From a virus: a DNA stretch of 64,000 bases. Below the pieces are notes generated by a model. It was not told where the DNA came from and ran no database searches. It saw only the letters and a program-made list of their open reading frames with translations. This document shows positions 3,157 through 61,212 of this stretch, piece after piece. Numbering within the stretch: position 1 is the first letter of the stretch; every line of letters begins with the position of its first letter. The stretch is taken from positions 1 to 64,000 of IMG/VR virus record IMGVR_UViG_3300010938_000036; one strand, 5' to 3'. The position numbers and the translations under genes were made by a program.

Positions 3157-3267
3157 ATGGTAAAGGTTGAACTATATTATGGAGCAAGGAGAGATAAGAA
3201 TAGGTTTAATCGTAAGAACAAAATAGTAATCATAAAGAAAAGAATTATTGATTGTAAAGGTGAGTGA
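3157..3267 (+). pseudogene. Decayed copy of the D12 methyltransferase 3' end
   Basis: Between the HsdM-like gene and the TSCPD gene lies a second, frameshifted copy of the last part of the D12 methyltransferase gene. In the ancestral frame it is interrupted by a TAG. Another frame is open from ATG 3157 to TGA 3267 (36 codons), and a strong GAGGAGG lies 8 bases before that ATG, so a short basic peptide could be made. I see no sign that this peptide is a conserved protein. Confidence 0.65.
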
Positions 3268-3338
3268 TTATGGATAAGGTAAGTCGTGATACTATTGAGG
3301 TATTGCAAGGTATAACTTATAAGATTAAAACGCCTTGT
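3178..3338 (+). repeat. Right copy of imperfect direct repeat flanking the HsdM-like gene
   Basis: This is the partner of 959-1128. It contains the degraded methyltransferase tail followed by the intact start of the TSCPD gene. Thus the left copy keeps the intact methyltransferase end and the right copy keeps the intact TSCPD gene, as expected if a cassette with duplicated flanks was inserted between two adjacent genes. Confidence 0.85.
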
Positions 3339-3620
3339 GGTAATATGTATGTTACGGTTAATAAGTTGGAAGATAAGATTATTGAGGTTTTTGCTAAACT
3401 TGGTAAGGCAGGTGGATGTCCGCAATGTAATCTTGATGGATTATGTAGAGTGATTTCAATTGCTTTGCAGGAAGGAACAGATATTAATAGAATTATCAAA
3501 ACATTATTAGGGCATAAGTGTCTTGAATCTGGAATAGAGTTACCCGATGAAGGATTAAGTTGTCCTGACGCAGTAGGTAAAATTTTGAAAAAAGAAAATT
3601 TAAATGAAAGTAAAAAATAA
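3270..3620 (+). CDS. TSCPD-domain protein
   Basis: The 116-residue product has the TSCPD pattern: a CPQC-x4-LCR stretch near the middle, a second cysteine in GHKC, and the closing SCPDAVGKIL. This domain forms the C-terminal part of adenosylcobalamin-dependent ribonucleotide reductases and also occurs as a stand-alone protein of unclear function. No reductase subunit is visible in the window. The cysteines suggest metal or redox chemistry. ATG 3270 is preferred over GTG 3264 because the duplicated fragment at 1060 starts at the equivalent codon and AGGTGA lies upstream. Confidence 0.75.
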   Translation: MDKVSRDTIEVLQGITYKIKTPCGNMYVTVNKLEDKIIEVFAKLGKAGGCPQCNLDGLCRVISIALQEGTDINRIIKTLLGHKCLESGIELPDEGLSCPDAVGKILKKENLNESKK

Positions 3621-6554: not shown

Positions 6555-8079
6555 TTTATTAGAAAAACTTAAAAAGCGATATATGTCTGCACCATTAGAA
6601 GGGAAGCAGTTATTAAGGGATAATTTGATTGCTTTGGCCGCTGCTTGTGGGAAGGAACAGGAAATTCAAAATTTTATTGAACAGGTTGATGGAGGAAGGA
6701 TTAATTCTCTGGATGATTTAAAGGTAGCACAGGAAGAAGAAAAAAAGGATGAAATGGAAGGTGAGGAAGTCAAAAAAGAGGAGATGAGGGAACGAGTAGA
6801 AAAATTAGAGCCAGAAGAGGTAAGGGAGGAACCAGAAGTAAAGAAAGAGGTTGAGCAACAGAAATCGGATTTACAATTACAAAAAATTAATGATAATATA
6901 AATGAAGTTTTGCAGAGATTGGAACAGATAAATAAAACATTGCAGGAACATGAAACAGCGCTTAAGGAGCATAAAAGGGTTTTAGAACATTTATTGCAGG
7001 AAGAAGAGGAAGAGGAGGAGAAGGAACCAAAGGTAGATGAATTTGGAGTAAGATTTAGTTCTGATTTAGAAGATTTAAACGAAAATAAAAAATATGCTAA
7101 TATAAGGAGGATTGCTATGGTGAAGGAACAATCAAATAAAGAATTAAGTCCTACAGAGCGTCGTAAGGCCAGGTTACAGAAATCTGCACAAGAGGAAGCA
7201 CCTAAGTCTTTGAAAGAATTTTATAATGTTGAAAAGGATATAGAGAAGATGAAAAAACTGCCTCGAATTCCAGAGACGCCGTATACTACGAAGGAACAGT
7301 TAGAGAAGAGGAAAGAGGAGGAGAAAGAAAAAATTAAAACAAGGGTATGGGATTTGTCTCGGTTAGCGGCTGAACTGACTGATGATGAACAGAGTTGGAT
7401 AGTGAGTTATGAGGGCAAACCTATTTATGCAATTAATTATAAGGATAATGAAAATCGTGTAGAAAAGGATGAATTTGTTTCAACTGGTTTTGGTAAAGGA
7501 TTATTAAAAACGCTTGCTCTTAATGGTGAGGAAGAACTGCAAAAGAAGTTTAATATAACAGTTCTTGGTGAACCTAAGAAAGAGGAGGAGAAGGAGGAAA
7601 AGAAGGAGAAGGAGAAAGAGAAGGAAAAAGAGGCTGCGTATGAGATTAAATTTGAAAGGGCATGGAGATTGGCGAATGCTGTTTTGATGAAGAATTTAAG
7701 TGATAATCCACTTAAAGGAGCGCTTTTTGAGATATTTAGTAAGAAGGCAGAACTTAAGAATCCCGTGCCATACATAGAGGAAGCATTTAGAATGGCAGCG
7801 GATAAATATTTTGATACAATGATGTCTTTGACTAAGAAATATATGAATTTGGACGATAAAACAATTGCAGAAGTAGAAGAATTTGTTAAAAGTGCAAGAA
7901 CCCAGGTGGCGAATTTGGATATAAATGAGAGAACTGATTTAGTAAGAGAGATGGAAGCACAAGAATTAAGGCGTAGAGCAGAAGCGGGTTCAATCCCTCT
8001 TGTGAGCAATGATTTTGTAAGGGAGGATCCGCTTAGAAGCGCTATGCCTAAACCTTTAAACTGGTATAATATTAAATAA
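6547..8079 (+). CDS. Glu-rich scaffold-like head assembly protein
   Basis: The start is set at ATG 6547, after GAGGAAG, rather than an in-frame ATG at 6520 inside the protease gene. The 510-residue product is extremely rich in Glu and Lys, with a heptad-like stretch near residues 105-160 predicting a coiled coil, a second E/K run near 345-365 and a more ordered C-terminal third. It lies between the protease and capsid genes, the usual place for a scaffold or core protein, a likely protease substrate. It contains a strong internal start at 7117, described separately. The assignment rests on position and composition. Confidence 0.6.
   Translation: MDNLLEKLKKRYMSAPLEGKQLLRDNLIALAAACGKEQEIQNFIEQVDGGRINSLDDLKVAQEEEKKDEMEGEEVKKEEMRERVEKLEPEEVREEPEVKKEVEQQKSDLQLQKINDNINEVLQRLEQINKTLQEHETALKEHKRVLEHLLQEEEEEEEKEPKVDEFGVRFSSDLEDLNENKKYANIRRIAMVKEQSNKELSPTERRKARLQKSAQEEAPKSLKEFYNVEKDIEKMKKLPRIPETPYTTKEQLEKRKEEEKEKIKTRVWDLSRLAAELTDDEQSWIVSYEGKPIYAINYKDNENRVEKDEFVSTGFGKGLLKTLALNGEEELQKKFNITVLGEPKKEEEKEEKKEKEKEKEKEAAYEIKFERAWRLANAVLMKNLSDNPLKGALFEIFSKKAELKNPVPYIEEAFRMAADKYFDTMMSLTKKYMNLDDKTIAEVEEFVKSARTQVANLDINERTDLVREMEAQELRRRAEAGSIPLVSNDFVREDPLRSAMPKPLNWYNIK
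7117..8079 (+). CDS. Internal-start product nested in the scaffold-like gene
   Basis: Within the scaffold-like gene, AAGGAGG at 7104-7110 is followed after 6 bases by ATG 7117 in the same frame. Translation from here would give a 320-residue product lacking the N-terminal coiled-coil part. Nested in-frame starts are known in head genes, for example lambda Nu3 within gene C, so a separate shorter scaffold form is plausible. The signal is as good as that of most real starts in this window. Whether it is used cannot be told from the sequence. Confidence 0.5.
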   Translation: MVKEQSNKELSPTERRKARLQKSAQEEAPKSLKEFYNVEKDIEKMKKLPRIPETPYTTKEQLEKRKEEEKEKIKTRVWDLSRLAAELTDDEQSWIVSYEGKPIYAINYKDNENRVEKDEFVSTGFGKGLLKTLALNGEEELQKKFNITVLGEPKKEEEKEEKKEKEKEKEKEAAYEIKFERAWRLANAVLMKNLSDNPLKGALFEIFSKKAELKNPVPYIEEAFRMAADKYFDTMMSLTKKYMNLDDKTIAEVEEFVKSARTQVANLDINERTDLVREMEAQELRRRAEAGSIPLVSNDFVREDPLRSAMPKPLNWYNIK

Positions 8080-10110: not shown

Positions 10111-10692
10111 ATGGGCAAGAATTTTAATGATATTATTCGTGATTTAGATTGGTGCGCTGAAACCTTAGAGAGGAAGGGATTACAGCGATTTGCGGAGGAA
10201 ATTGATAAAATAACTGCGATGATTGAGGATGGAGCGCCTGAAGAGGAAGTGGCAAACAATATTTTACGAGTTTCAGATATGATAAGTGAAGCAGAATTGA
10301 TAAGCGCAAAGAAAGAGGAAGAGGAAGAAGAAGAGAAAGAGGAGAAGGAGGAGAAAAAGGCAAAGAAGGAGGAGGAAGAAGAGGAAGAAGAAGAGAAAGA
10401 AAAAGAAGCATCATTTAGGGAATGGCGTAGAAGGATGTTGGCAAAAAGGCGGCTTAAGGAATTAATGGAAAAAAGGAAAAAGAGGTCTTGGTTGAGAGAG
10501 GCAGAACCAGATCCCGAACCTGAACCTGAACCTGAACCTGAACCGAGAAGGCCTTATGAATATCGTCCTTCGTATGAATATAGACCCTATGAGTATAGAC
10601 CGTATGAGTATAGACCATATGAATATAGACCAACAACTGCAATGAGTCCTACTGCAAGAAGGATTAGAAGACGTAAATTAGATGAAGATTAG
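10111..10692 (+). CDS. Low-complexity acidic/basic protein with EP and YEYRP repeats
   Basis: The 193-residue product has three parts. An N-terminal helical domain (about 1-65) is followed by a Glu/Lys run (about 68-105) and a basic segment. The C-terminus has Glu-Pro repeats and then near-perfect YEYRP repeats, ending in a basic tail. It follows the capsid gene with a good AGGAGG. Its charge segregation resembles virion or scaffold accessory proteins, but I cannot assign a function. It overlaps the next gene by 11 bases. Confidence 0.6.
   Translation: MGKNFNDIIRDLDWCAETLERKGLQRFAEEIDKITAMIEDGAPEEEVANNILRVSDMISEAELISAKKEEEEEEEKEEKEEKKAKKEEEEEEEEEKEKEASFREWRRRMLAKRRLKELMEKRKKRSWLREAEPDPEPEPEPEPEPRRPYEYRPSYEYRPYEYRPYEYRPYEYRPTTAMSPTARRIRRRKLDED
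10555..10632 (+). repeat. Tandem 15-bp repeat encoding YEYRP units
   Basis: About five copies of a 15-base unit close to TATGAATATAGACCA lie in frame, the first copy being more divergent. They are preceded by a run of Glu-Pro codons (about 10510-10545). Third-position differences between units show that the array is not freshly amplified. Confidence 0.85.
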
Positions 10693-11740: not shown

Positions 11741-12334
11741 ATGGCAGAGGTTTTTGGTATAAGGACAGACAATCTTTATTGGGTTGGTGACCCTAAACGG
11801 TTTGAATTTAAGGGTTACCAGATAGATATAGATGGTGCAAAAAATTTATGGAATTCATTTAAAGGTAAAACTAAAGAAGAAAAATTAACAGATTGTCTGT
11901 CCTTTGCCAAAAATTTAGGATTATCAGCAAGGAATTTTTGTGGAAAAATATTTTTAATGGTTTTTAATGAATTTCCAGGATATATTCTTTCAGAGGTAGA
12001 GGATATTGAGAAGGGTAGAGCATTTAAATTGTTTCATGAATTTGTTAATGATTTCTGTGAACAGCAAATTAAGAGTCCTTTGCCAGAAAAATTTTATGAA
12101 CAAACTTTTTATATGACCTATAATGATTTTATAATGAGACTTAAGAATTTATTGGACATAGCACAAGATGAGAATGAACTGGTTATTGGACTTAATTCTA
12201 TTTGTCCAGACTTTGGTCAATTTTTATTTTCAAGATGGTTAGAAAGGCAAAGAAAAATACCAGGTGTTGAAGATTTAGTTAAGAAGGCACAACTTTTGAA
12301 AACCAGATTAGTAAATTATATTAATGGAGGTTAG
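11741..12334 (+). CDS. Hypothetical neck-region protein
   Basis: The 197-residue, largely helical protein begins 2 bases after the preceding stop. Aromatic residues are frequent, and there is no catalytic motif or membrane segment. Position between the capsid and sheath genes suggests a head completion or connector role, but this is inference from gene order. Confidence 0.5.
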   Translation: MAEVFGIRTDNLYWVGDPKRFEFKGYQIDIDGAKNLWNSFKGKTKEEKLTDCLSFAKNLGLSARNFCGKIFLMVFNEFPGYILSEVEDIEKGRAFKLFHEFVNDFCEQQIKSPLPEKFYEQTFYMTYNDFIMRLKNLLDIAQDENELVIGLNSICPDFGQFLFSRWLERQRKIPGVEDLVKKAQLLKTRLVNYINGG

Positions 12335-15160: not shown

Positions 15161-15189
15161 TTGACTTTTAAAATTTTTTTTATTATAAT
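15161..15189 (+). promoter_or_regulatory. Near-consensus sigma-70-type promoter upstream of the sheath leader
   Basis: TTGACT at 15161-15166 and TATAAT at 15184-15189 are separated by exactly 17 bases. The predicted transcription start falls at about 15196, where the duplicated structured element begins with AGGAGG. The element would thus form the whole 5' leader of the sheath mRNA. Confidence 0.75.
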
Positions 15190-15195
15190 GTTAAT

Positions 15196-15398
15196 AGGAG
15201 GTTGGAAACAGTTGAGTAATTTATTGATAAATGTAGAGATTTCATGTAAGGTAATGGTAGGACTGAGCAGACCGAAAGGATCTCAGTCTAAGAGATTTGT
15301 GCCTGGCCGAGGCCATACTGGTAGAGATACCAGCGATGTTCTCGTTAAGGCGAGGAATTTAGTTGTGGACACTTTTGTCTACAACTAGAAAGGCAGGT
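15196..15398 (+). ncRNA. Duplicated structured leader element, copy 1 (before the tail sheath gene)
   Basis: This 203-base segment is repeated at 59094-59296 with about 10 differences. It can form hairpins at 15260-15289 (8 bp outer stem, inner GAAA loop), 15318-15333 (6 bp, GAGA loop), 15341-15354 (5 bp) and 15360-15387 (12 bp, CUUU loop). Stem substitutions between copies in the last two hairpins keep pairing (G-U to A-U, G-C to G-U, U-G to C-G). It begins at AGGAGG next to the predicted transcription start and ends in AAGGCAGGT, 6 bases before the sheath ATG. It may be a cis-regulatory RNA; I do not recognise a known class. Confidence 0.65.
15212..15388 (+). CDS. Possible 58-residue leader peptide within the duplicated element, copy 1
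   Basis: TTG 15212 lies 10 bases after AGGAGG and opens a 58-codon frame ending in TAG 15386. That stop lies 2 bases before the SD-like AAGGCAGGT of the sheath gene. The same frame is open in the second copy. Between copies I count 6 amino-acid changes and 2 silent changes, roughly what unconstrained coding sequence gives, so protein-level selection is not evident. It may be a translated leader that couples to the next gene, or the open frame may be incidental to an RNA structure. Confidence 0.4.
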   Translation: MSNLLINVEISCKVMVGLSRPKGSQSKRFVPGRGHTGRDTSDVLVKARNLVVDTFVYN

Positions 15399-15404
15399 CA
15401 TTAA

Positions 15405-17162
15405 ATGGCAAATAGATTACCAGGTGTGGTTGTAAGAATAGTTCCTGAGATAGGGCAGGTAACAATACCTTTATTTCAAAGGTATGTTTGTATAATAGGT
15501 CAGGGAGAACATAGATTATTGCAATCTAATGAAGAGGTAGTGCGTAGTTCTGTAAACAATTATGATATTTTTTCTAAAAGTTTTGTAGAATTGATAAGAG
15601 TTGGATTGGTTCCAGACGCTTCTGATTTTGTTCAAGGGACACATTTTAATATTTATACGCAGGGCGGACAGAATGTAGGTATTCAATGGAATCCATTAGT
15701 TCCTGCTTCTACTAATCAATCTTGGTCAATTGCAGAACCTTTTGATTTTACAACAAATAATAAATTAAAAATTAATATAGATGGATTAGGGGATGTTATT
15801 ATAGATTTATCATCATTGGGAAATTCTGCTACTGCTGCGCAGGTTGCAAATGTAATTAATACAGCATTGAGTAATGCTTACGGAACAGCATATAATTCTG
15901 TAGCACAGTTATTCCCTTCACCTACGAATGATAAGGTTCAACTTGTTTCTCCTACAAGTGGAGAAAATTCAAAAATTGTTTTTTATGATATTGCTAATAA
16001 TGCTTTTGTGGAAATTTGGGGAAATGGACCTGCACCTAACACCTGGCCCAACGGTATATTAGTATTAACAGGAACAGGTAAACAACCTGCTGCTGGTCAA
16101 ACTTATTATGTGACTTATCGTTATAAGGCACCAGATTCAACTTATGAACCTACATTGTATTTTGATTTAAAACCTATTTATAATGAACATGGAAGTAGAT
16201 TTCTTGCTAATCCATCTAACCCAACTCAGATTAATGAAATTGTTTTGATGGCAGAAATGGCATTTCAGGATTTGCCTGAGAGAATACCTGGAATTGTAGT
16301 TGCTCAATTGGATTTAAGAAATGCAGTTAATCCTTATGAACCTACACCATTGGAATTGCGAGATGCTTATATTGCAATGTTGGAGAAGTTGGAAAGGGTA
16401 ACAGAAGGGAAATTATATTTAGTTTTAAATACGACTGATAGCCAAGTTTTGGATGAATATTTTAATCATGTAAGGACGATGAGTCAACCAGAAATTAAGG
16501 CAGAAAGGATGTTATGTATAACGATGCCTCCTGGTAGTTCAATTAATGATTATATAAGTTCAACTGGAGCGCCTCATTATAAATCAGAAAGGGTAATGTT
16601 ATTTTATCCATCTATGATTTATGTAGACAGTGTGGGGCAGGATTTACCAAATTATTATGCGCCTTTGATTTATGCTGCAAGGAAAACTGCGGTTCCTATT
16701 GCGACACCTATTAATGTAGAACCGTTACCTGGTATTACATTAAAGACAGCACCGACTTATAATGAAAAGAAGATTCTATTGGCGAATGGTGTTGCGGTAG
16801 TGGATATTGTTGAAGGGCAGACGGTGATTTTACATGGTATAACAACAAGAACAGATTTTGTAATTTATGAGGAAGAAAATGTGGTTGATATTGCTGACTA
16901 TGTTAAATTTATATGGCGTAAAAGAATGTTTGAATTATTTAAAAATGCTCCTATAGATGCGCCGACATTAAGGTCAATGGTTACAACTTCTATTGCATTG
17001 CTTGATTCTTTGATTAGAGATAGGATAATAGCGGATTACAAGAATATTCAAGCGGTTCAGGATAATGTTGAGCCGAGAATGGTAAGAATGCGTGGTAAGG
17101 TAAAACCTATGTTTCATGTATTGTATATGGACATAGAATTTACATTTTCAACAACCTTATAA
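15405..17162 (+). CDS. Contractile tail sheath protein
   Basis: The 585-residue product starts LPGVVVRIVPE, a typical sheath opening. Its C-terminal domain (about 490-585) carries the conserved pattern of sheath proteins: FIWRKRMFELFKNAP, then SMVTTSIALLDSLIRDRIIADYKNIQ, then a final beta strand. A beta-rich insertion domain occupies about residues 70-245. Sheath subunits polymerise around the tube and contract to drive it into the host. The gene is followed by the tube gene 12 bases later, and is preceded by a strong promoter and the duplicated leader element, which could allow separate control of this abundant protein. Confidence 0.9.
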   Translation: MANRLPGVVVRIVPEIGQVTIPLFQRYVCIIGQGEHRLLQSNEEVVRSSVNNYDIFSKSFVELIRVGLVPDASDFVQGTHFNIYTQGGQNVGIQWNPLVPASTNQSWSIAEPFDFTTNNKLKINIDGLGDVIIDLSSLGNSATAAQVANVINTALSNAYGTAYNSVAQLFPSPTNDKVQLVSPTSGENSKIVFYDIANNAFVEIWGNGPAPNTWPNGILVLTGTGKQPAAGQTYYVTYRYKAPDSTYEPTLYFDLKPIYNEHGSRFLANPSNPTQINEIVLMAEMAFQDLPERIPGIVVAQLDLRNAVNPYEPTPLELRDAYIAMLEKLERVTEGKLYLVLNTTDSQVLDEYFNHVRTMSQPEIKAERMLCITMPPGSSINDYISSTGAPHYKSERVMLFYPSMIYVDSVGQDLPNYYAPLIYAARKTAVPIATPINVEPLPGITLKTAPTYNEKKILLANGVAVVDIVEGQTVILHGITTRTDFVIYEEENVVDIADYVKFIWRKRMFELFKNAPIDAPTLRSMVTTSIALLDSLIRDRIIADYKNIQAVQDNVEPRMVRMRGKVKPMFHVLYMDIEFTFSTTL

Positions 17163-57149: not shown

Positions 57150-57159
57150 AGTAGGTTAT

Positions 57160-57240
57160 TTGAAGATAAAGGCAATTTTAGTAGATGAACAGATGAAACT
57201 TTGGCAAAGCAGATTGCAAGATTTTAAATATAAATGGTGA
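57160..57240 (+). pseudogene. Short frame in the gap before the portal gene, possible gene remnant
   Basis: A 26-codon frame from TTG 57160 to TGA 57240 encodes ILVDEQMKLWQSRLQDFKYKW, which looks more protein-like than random AT-rich DNA. It lacks a clear ribosome binding site. It may be the end of a gene lost when the neighbouring gene was inserted. Nothing else is seen in this gap apart from the 12-bp repeat. Confidence 0.3.
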
Positions 57241-57257: not shown

Positions 57258-57269
57258 GGTATTAAATGA
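57258..57269 (+). repeat. 12-bp direct repeat, right copy
   Basis: This exact copy of GGTATTAAATGA contains the portal ATG (57266). See 55937-55948. Confidence 0.6.
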
Positions 57270-59095
57270 GTGATGAAATAAAAACTAATAATGAGAAATT
57301 GCCTACAGTGGTGCCTTTTGGGGTTAAGGCACGGGGAGGATTTTTTAGTACTGCTGAATTTAAGGTAAGAGCGCAACCTTTTCTTGGATTGGGTGGTCCT
57401 ATTTCTGCACCGCAGGGTGGACTTGGAACTGTTATAACCACAGCACCTATTTTTTATGATATTCGTTATTTTACTCCTGATAAATTTTATTTCCCAAGAC
57501 AAGAATTAGAACAAAATGATATATGGCGTTTAATTTATAAAAGGGACCCTATTGTTGGTGCAGCAATTGATTTGTATGCTGAATTTGCCTGGTCTAATTT
57601 TGATTTGGTAGGAATAGATGATACTGCTGTTCGTTCTGTTTATGAAAATACAGTCGCAAATTTAAATTTGTTATCAATTTTGCCAGATATGACTAAAGAA
57701 TTTTTAATCATTGGTAAGGTTATACCACATTTAATTTTTTCAGAAAAGGATGGGATTTGGAAACATGTTTTTATTCATGATCCTGACTATATTAAAATGA
57801 CGGTGCTACCTTTTGCTAATGAGGAACCAATTTTGGATTTAAAGGTGCCACCTGAATTAAGACAATTGGTAATTTCTCCTGATCCAAGAATACAAAAAAT
57901 TGTAGCAAAATTGCCAGAGAGTATGGTGACTGCAATATTAAGTTCGCAATTTATTCCTTTGGATAATTTAAATGTAACTGTTATTCCTCGTCGGGCTTTT
58001 GCTTCTGATTGGAGAGGGATTTCTATTTTAGAAAGACTTTACAGGATGTTAATGTTTGAGGATTTTTTGATGAATGCAGCATTGGCTGTTGCACAGCGTA
58101 ATGCAGTTCCTTTAAGAATTTTTAAATTGGGTGATCATAAAGTTGATTGGTATCCTACAAAAGAAGATGAAAATGCGTTGAGTGAATTGTTGGCGATTGC
58201 AGAGGCGGACCCGATGTCCGCTTTGATAATGCATTCTGGAATAGAAGTAGAATATGTTGGTGTTTCTGACCGTTTTTGGAATGTTGCAAGAGAATGGGAT
58301 TTTATTGAAAATATTAAATTGGTGGGATTAGGTGTAAGTAAATCTTTTCTTATGGGGGAGGCATCTTTTGCCAGTGCGGTAGCGGGTTTGCAAACTTTTG
58401 TTCAAAAGGTAGCAGGATTGCGTATGAAATTTGAAAATGAATGGATTGTTCCTAAGATTTTTAAAACAATTGCTAAAATACATAAATTTTATAAACGGAC
58501 ACCAGCAGAATTATCATATCGTATTCGTTTACAAAAGGAGGATTCAGATTTATTATACCCTGTTATTAAATGGCACAGGTCATTAGAGCCAACTCAAGAT
58601 ACATCTTTATTAAGCGTTTGGCGAGAATTACATGATAAAGGTATAATTTCAGATAGAACTTATGCTGCTGGTGCTGGTCTTAATCTGGATGTAGAAAGAC
58701 AAAATAAATTAGAAGAAGAACAATATAAAAAGAAGATAGAAACAATGGTAACAAAAATTCAATCTCAGATGGGGAATGAAACTGGATATCATGTTCCTTC
58801 TAAATATATACATGCATCTTGTTTTGATAAGCAAGGATTTTTTAAAGGTGTTCATTATTCTGAATTAGAACCAGTAATAGCATTTATTAAAGGGCATCAA
58901 GTAGATGAATTTAAAGGAATAGATAATTCTTTGTCTTCAATATATCATTATTTGCGGGAGAAGAATTGGGATGATAAAAAATTAGATGCATTGACAGAAT
59001 TATTAAAAATTGAGAAAATATTAGTAACTCCTGATAAAATTTATGAAGAAATAGAGAAAGAGACATTACAAAAAGATTTTTTATCAGGGAAATAG
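57266..59095 (+). CDS. Portal protein
   Basis: The 609-residue product has the common portal layout: IWRLIYKRDPIVGAAIDLYAEFAWSNFD near 85-115, a wing domain, VIPRRAFASDWRGISILERL near 230-250, and the stem-helix region RFWNVAREWDFIENIKLVGLGVSKSFLMGEASFASA near 330-365. Twelve copies form the vertex for DNA entry. It lies a few genes after the terminase. Its stop codon overlaps the AGGAGG that begins copy 2 of the duplicated element. Confidence 0.85.
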   Translation: MSDEIKTNNEKLPTVVPFGVKARGGFFSTAEFKVRAQPFLGLGGPISAPQGGLGTVITTAPIFYDIRYFTPDKFYFPRQELEQNDIWRLIYKRDPIVGAAIDLYAEFAWSNFDLVGIDDTAVRSVYENTVANLNLLSILPDMTKEFLIIGKVIPHLIFSEKDGIWKHVFIHDPDYIKMTVLPFANEEPILDLKVPPELRQLVISPDPRIQKIVAKLPESMVTAILSSQFIPLDNLNVTVIPRRAFASDWRGISILERLYRMLMFEDFLMNAALAVAQRNAVPLRIFKLGDHKVDWYPTKEDENALSELLAIAEADPMSALIMHSGIEVEYVGVSDRFWNVAREWDFIENIKLVGLGVSKSFLMGEASFASAVAGLQTFVQKVAGLRMKFENEWIVPKIFKTIAKIHKFYKRTPAELSYRIRLQKEDSDLLYPVIKWHRSLEPTQDTSLLSVWRELHDKGIISDRTYAAGAGLNLDVERQNKLEEEQYKKKIETMVTKIQSQMGNETGYHVPSKYIHASCFDKQGFFKGVHYSELEPVIAFIKGHQVDEFKGIDNSLSSIYHYLREKNWDDKKLDALTELLKIEKILVTPDKIYEEIEKETLQKDFLSGK

Positions 59096-59296
59096 GAGGA
59101 AGGAAACAGTTGAGTAATTTATTGACAAATATAGAGATTTCATGTAAGGTAATGGTAGGACTGAGCAGACCGAAAGGATCTCAGTCTAAGAGATTTGTGC
59201 CTCGCCGAGGCCATACTGGTAAAGATACCAGCGATGTTCTCGCTACGGCGAGGAATTTAGTTGTAGACACTTTTGTTTACAACTAGAAAGGCAGGT
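59094..59296 (+). ncRNA. Duplicated structured element, copy 2 (after the portal gene)
   Basis: This is the partner of 15196-15398, with about 10 differences over 203 bases and no indels. All four hairpins of copy 1 can form; the third gains a stable C(UACG)G loop. A longer helix between CCTCGCCG and CGGCGAGG is perfect here but broken in copy 1. It ends 6 bases before ATG 59303, the same spacing as in copy 1. No promoter is evident directly upstream, so here it would be part of a longer transcript. Confidence 0.65.
59110..59286 (+). CDS. Possible 58-residue peptide within the duplicated element, copy 2
   Basis: TTG 59110 follows AGGAGG by 10 bases and the frame closes at TAG 59284-59286, exactly as in copy 1. 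Six of 58 residues differ between the copies. The peptide is basic in the middle (SRPKGSQSKRFVP) and matches nothing I know. Being open in both copies favours translation; the lack of excess silent change argues against strong protein constraint. Confidence 0.4.
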   Translation: MSNLLTNIEISCKVMVGLSRPKGSQSKRFVPRRGHTGKDTSDVLATARNLVVDTFVYN

Positions 59297-59302
59297 TCGA
59301 GA

Positions 59303-59536
59303 ATGTTTGAGATTATAAGTTTTGTGTTAAAAAAAGCGTTTTTGAAGATGAAGGGGCTTTTAGGTATTGATGAGGAGATTGAACTTCTTGCAAAGCAGAT
59401 TGCAAAACTTTCTAAAAAGCCAGGATTTGACCAGGCAAGGATAAGGAATTTGATAGTAGTAGAATTGATGTATCCGCAGGCGGTTTTTGATGCGGCTTGG
59501 GAAAGATACCTGAAGGAATATAAAGGAAAAGCATAG
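59303..59536 (+). CDS. Small helical virion-region protein
   Basis: Start ATG 59303 lies 6 bases after AAGGCAGGT, the end of the duplicated element. The 77-residue product is helical, beginning FEIISFVLKKAFLKMKGLL. The next gene's product begins in a similar way (IKIILKKAFLQVKLLE), suggesting a shared N-terminal signal or a duplicated start. Function unknown. Confidence 0.55.
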   Translation: MFEIISFVLKKAFLKMKGLLGIDEEIELLAKQIAKLSKKPGFDQARIRNLIVVELMYPQAVFDAAWERYLKEYKGKA

Positions 59537-61003: not shown

Positions 61004-61012
61004 GGTGAATTT

Positions 61013-61201
61013 ATGAAGACTGAAATTGTTGCATTAATTAATGCTTTAGAGGATGAATATCAAGGGATAGAATTTTATAAAGAATTAGCAAAAATGTTTG
61101 ATAATCCAGAAATACGGAATGCTTTAAATCAAATTGCTAAAGAAGAACAGGGACATTATGAATATATTAAAAAATTGTTATTTTATTATAAACCTTGTTG
61201 A
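61013..61201 (+). CDS. Half-ferritin/rubrerythrin-like two-helix protein
   Basis: The 62-residue product has the pattern of one half of a ferritin-like bundle: a first helix EDEYQGIEFYKELAK (E13-E24 region) and a second helix with IAKEEQGHYEYIKKLL, whose E45-x2-H48 matches the ExxH iron ligand motif. Two chains would have to pair to form a four-helix di-iron site. It could bind or oxidise iron in the virion or infected cell. GAGGTG precedes the ATG. Such a gene in a virion block is uncommon. Confidence 0.6.
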   Translation: MKTEIVALINALEDEYQGIEFYKELAKMFDNPEIRNALNQIAKEEQGHYEYIKKLLFYYKPC

Positions 61202-61212
61202 GGTTATGAATT

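Follow-up and report, generated by a model that had tools for sequence, protein, structure and literature searches.

A 203-bp element occurs twice on the plus strand of the window, i.e. the whole 64,000-nucleotide stretch of viral DNA analysed here. We tentatively read it as a duplicated structured mRNA leader which contains the ribosome binding site of the downstream gene together with a small open reading frame and which would act on translation of the downstream gene; the probability of this reading is put at about 0.45. The copies at 15196-15398 and 59094-59296 are each 203 bp long and were aligned without gaps, revealing 10 substitutions (blastn self-match, E 4e-90). Coordinates, length and the approximate number of substitutions had been given for this duplication, located before the sheath gene and after the portal gene, by an earlier sequence-only reading, and all were verified. 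Beyond its two boundaries, identity falls to the background level or close to it within about 20 nt. The GC content of the element is 43% as compared to 31.6% for the window, and no third copy was found in the IMG/VR record (64,820 bases searched). The features of the two loci are as follows:

15161..15189, plus strand: sigma70-type promoter TTGACT-17-TATAAT, predicted +1 at A15196, where copy 1 begins
15196..15398, plus strand: element copy 1, putative leader of the sheath gene
15196..15201, plus strand: AGGAGG, Shine-Dalgarno-like, 10 nt ahead of TTG in copy 1
15212..15388, plus strand: 58-codon open frame of copy 1, TTG to TAG, arranged AGGAGG-10-TTG
15260..15289 (copy 2: 59158-59187), plus strand: predicted hairpin 1, element positions 65-94, 8 bp with inner C-GAAA-G, identical in both copies
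15300..15304, plus strand: UGCCU, element positions 105-109, able to pair with AGGCA (196-200; 15391-15395) of the downstream ribosome binding site
15318..15333 (copy 2: 59216-59231, loop AAGA), plus strand: hairpin 2 from folding, element positions 123-138, CUGGUA-GAGA-UACCAG
15339..15356 (copy 2: 59237-59254, UUCUCGC-UACG-GCGAGGA), plus strand: predicted hairpin 3, element positions 144-161, UUCUCGU-UAAG-GCGAGGA
15358..15389 (copy 2: 59256-59287), plus strand: predicted hairpin 4, element positions 163-194, 14 bp, covering the end of the open frame and its stop codon
15389..15398 (copy 2 equivalent: 59287-59296, gene 59303), plus strand: AAAGGCAGGT, ribosome site of the sheath gene, final bases of the repeat
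15405..17162, plus strand: tail sheath gene (phrog_2839, E 1.4e-12)
57266..59095, plus strand: portal gene (phrog_16240, E 5.1e-92)
59094..59296, plus strand: element copy 2, between the portal gene and gene 59303
59110..59286, plus strand: 58-codon open frame of copy 2, TTG to TAG, protein 90% identical to that of copy 1
59303..59536, plus strand: gene 59303, 77 aa, function unassigned, after copy 2

The promoter ahead of copy 1 carries 11 of 12 consensus bases and is the sole exact match to its pattern within the window. Its spacing places +1 at A15196, and the earlier claim that copy 1 begins at the start predicted for a consensus promoter was thereby confirmed. No promoter comparable to that of copy 1 was found at copy 2, the first bases of which overlap the portal stop codon (ORF 57266-59095). 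At the other end, exactly 6 nt separate the repeat from an ATG in both copies (15405 for the sheath gene and 59303), again as described before. The unit spans the predicted 5' end (+1, AGGAGG) to the ribosome binding site, and its boundaries match those of a leader unit. The leader in copy 1 would be the whole region from the predicted +1 to the sheath ribosome site, and copy 2 would be placed alike before gene 59303.

The portal proteins nearest to that of the phage belong to Rctr197k (36%) and Bacillus phage G (30%); hence, the phage is distantly related to large tailed phages. Elsewhere in the window, a 162-bp duplication was observed (959-1120 and 3178-3330, 86%) in which a D12-class methyltransferase gene ends and an N6-methylase gene begins. 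Its copy at 3178-3330 leads into a small ORF (about 3270-3620), the CPQC...CPDA pattern of which we take to be reminiscent of TSCPD domains. A segment upstream of the portal gene, 57159-57225, resembles 59341-59411 inside gene 59303 (79%), and may be left over from one more local duplication around the portal gene. Additionally, purine-rich GAGGAAGAA-type repeats at 7577-7634 and 10309-10409 are common to two genes, where they probably encode acidic low-complexity protein segments.

RNA folding was analysed for both copies. The four hairpins per copy that had been described before form in both, and each of the 37 pairs in the main hairpins is standard in both copies; hairpin 144-161 of copy 2 competes with longer-range pairing in the prediction. 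Canonical tetraloops of the GNRA and UNCG types are present, namely GAAA in both copies, GAGA in copy 1, and C(UACG)G in copy 2. Fold z-scores of -3.65 and -3.73 were obtained for the two copies against 200 dinucleotide shuffles, and both z and MFE of the element were the lowest in a set of 249 stretches, made up of 247 background tiles and the copies themselves. When codons were shuffled synonymously with codon usage preserved, none of 300 sequences folded as well for either copy; when synonymous codons were drawn uniformly instead of as observed, 3 of 300 did. Among segments of other genes treated with synonymous shuffles, 1 of 263 had a z below that of copy 2. The gene start at 11741-11917 showed the strongest fold beyond synonymous shuffles among the gene segments tested (z -4.36). 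The minus strand gave z -5.5 and -4.9, i.e. the fold signal by z is unspecific to the mRNA strand, and absolute stability favours the plus strand.

Comparison of the copies revealed three substitutions in stems (element positions 150, 172 and 184). As noted before, all three keep pairing; each does so by G-U exchange, and two-sided compensation was found in none of them. The p value of such retention is about 0.01-0.08, depending on transition bias. Stems and remaining positions are substituted at nearly equal rates (3/74 and 7/129), and the evidence between copies is weak. True covariation is absent because only two copies and no homologue are available. The proposal of a phage cis-regulatory RNA made in the sequence-only reading was upheld in part: position, fold strength and stem-preserving changes fit it, but a pair of copies cannot yield true covariation, and both contain an open frame with its own Shine-Dalgarno sequence.

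This frame of 58 codons had been missed in the first reading although it fills the element in both copies. Its presence in both copies behind a ribosome site is what a protein-coding region would show, and the element may therefore simply be a duplicated small gene, copied together with its own Shine-Dalgarno sequence and that of the next gene, with hairpins that are incidental or of minor importance. We consider this ordinary explanation, the chief alternative to the leader, possible, though somewhat doubtful. Such an open frame would arise by chance with a probability of about 0.005 in Markov sequences and of 0.006 when shuffling preserves the structure, which favours a real gene and counts against the leader reading. 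Furthermore, gene 24304 and the start of copy 1 share the 13-nt ribosome binding site AGGAGGTTGGAAA letter for letter. Other gaps longer than about 150 nt in the genome likewise contain small ORFs; hence, an ORF would be expected in the 203-bp element, too. Another small ORF, at 61004-61212 (MKTEIVALINALEDEYQGIEFYKELAK...), may encode a short ferritin/rubrerythrin-like helical protein. Other gaps of about 210 nt were inspected as diverged copies of the element and rejected, being AT-rich small ORFs with no similarity to it.

Several results argue against a plain gene. Codon usage of the frame lies in the bottom 0.5-1% of 57-codon gene segments of the phage and is unlike that of the genome's genes. 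Between the copies, 6 nonsynonymous and 2 synonymous changes were counted; the synonymous fraction expected without selection is 0.24-0.31, and these eight changes, from two sequences only, give no sign of protein selection. The fold is also stronger than in any of the 300 codon-preserving shuffles described above. The start codon is TTG and the spacing from the Shine-Dalgarno sequence is long. Searches with the peptide in Pfam, PHROGs and PDB, by tblastn against phages and by peptide scans of IMG/VR and genomes gave no worthwhile match. An AlphaFold model reached a pLDDT of 59, a value obtained from a two-row alignment only and hence uninformative.

A leader with a translatable ORF would explain all of these observations, and neither this reading nor the plain gene is decisive on two sequences. 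The leader reading draws on the boundaries of the repeat (from +1 to ribosome binding site, with 6-nt spacing), the strength of the fold and the retained stem pairs; it also draws on the canonical tetraloops, the raised GC content, the codon usage and substitution ratio of the ORF and on the position of this ORF, headed by a Shine-Dalgarno sequence and ending shortly before an ATG. Counting against it are the weak evidence between copies, the fold signal shared by the minus strand, the 3 of 300 uniform-codon sequences that fold as well, and the limited masking of the ribosome site together with the lack of effect of hairpin 4 described below. The distance from stop to next ATG is 16 nt in both copies (TAG 15388 to ATG 15405; TAG 59286 to ATG 59303).

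Folding models suggest how such a leader may operate. The folded RNA may present or shield the embedded ribosome site. The masking helix of UGCCU with AGGCA has a predicted probability of about 0.45 in copy 1 and of about 0 in copy 2 with downstream sequence included; local downstream pairing replaces it in the model of copy 2. Accessibility of the ribosome binding site was calculated as 0.40 for copy 1 and 0.62 for copy 2, and it was unchanged when hairpin 4 was blocked in the model. In copy 1, but not in copy 2, the model also pairs the 5' part of the leader with the beginning of the downstream coding sequence, here that of the sheath (P about 0.98). A ribosome moving along the small ORF would melt the fold around the downstream ribosome binding site and, by analogy with known gene pairs, may pass from the end of the ORF to the next start 16 nt on; any effect on expression would then come about by translational coupling.

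Translational coupling of genes by way of a structured intercistronic or leader RNA is known from MS2 coat-lysis and E. coli rpmI-rplT (reviewed in PMC12548453). Like these, the element has an upstream ORF headed by a Shine-Dalgarno sequence that ends close to the next start, and its RNA is predicted to fold at the downstream ribosome site and ahead of it. Unlike these, it is duplicated as a 203-bp unit at two structural loci, and masking of its ribosome binding site is only partly predicted. GOLLD and ROOL are also structured RNAs carried by phages (PMC12286853), but they are much larger and non-coding, and the element has no Rfam match.

A leader acting on transcription may also be considered, i.e. 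an antitermination or anti-pausing RNA comparable to put of phage HK022, with one copy ahead of each of two structural gene blocks. The put RNA has about 70 nt and two stem-loops and is located at the early operons; putL directly follows PL, and putR lies about 270 nt past the PR start (PMC9378689). As in HK022, two related hairpin-rich RNA copies are present in one phage, one of them right at a predicted promoter start. However, the element with its 203 nt and four hairpins is three times longer than put and without Rfam match, and it is set apart from the described features of put by its ORF and by its end: both copies end precisely with a ribosome site, a feature that antitermination would not require. 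We regard a put-like role as quite unlikely.

Relatives of the element were searched for. The Rfam comparison that had been suggested earlier was carried out: no family in Rfam 15 matched at the gathering threshold, and only chance matches appeared at E 10 (E 1.9 and 9.3). Blastn against phages and plasmids found nothing for the element. Patterns of the conserved DNA core, exact and gapped, yielded no credible relative in viral and genome contigs; their matches were identified as chance or as unrelated gene families by context and covariance model. One 42-position fragment (covariance model E 0.046) was rejected, having been picked by the search pattern itself. Relatives traced through the portal protein, among them Bacillus phage G and Rctr197k, were searched over their full length (13 records) with covariance model and ORF profile and contained nothing credible; the best match (E 0.12) was in phage G. 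Judged from these comparisons, the element is provisionally an orphan across Rfam, phages, plasmids, Pfam, PHROGs, IMG/VR and genome patterns. The first reading had also proposed a mobile ribozyme or RNA module. A ribozyme that cleaves itself or splices, or else a mobile RNA or DNA module, would fit the sharp repeat boundaries, the missing promoter at copy 2 and a length near that of the smallest group I introns, but we consider it very improbable: core motifs of Rfam ribozyme or intron families were not matched even at E 10, neither terminal inverted repeats nor a target duplication nor an associated enzyme was seen, and no further copy was found in the record or in the viral and genome pattern scans.

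If the element is a duplicated small gene, the finding is ordinary. On either reading, the case shows that repeats must be examined for open frames before they are labelled as non-coding RNA. A further proposal, which we think unlikely, is that the element represents a novel class of phage leader RNAs, with an ORF within the fold and copied before tail and head-region structural genes such that both virion modules are adjusted together. If the leader reading is true, the element would be an orphan phage regulatory RNA common to the tail locus and the portal-adjacent locus, and it would provide a simple means of coordinating the output of structural proteins.
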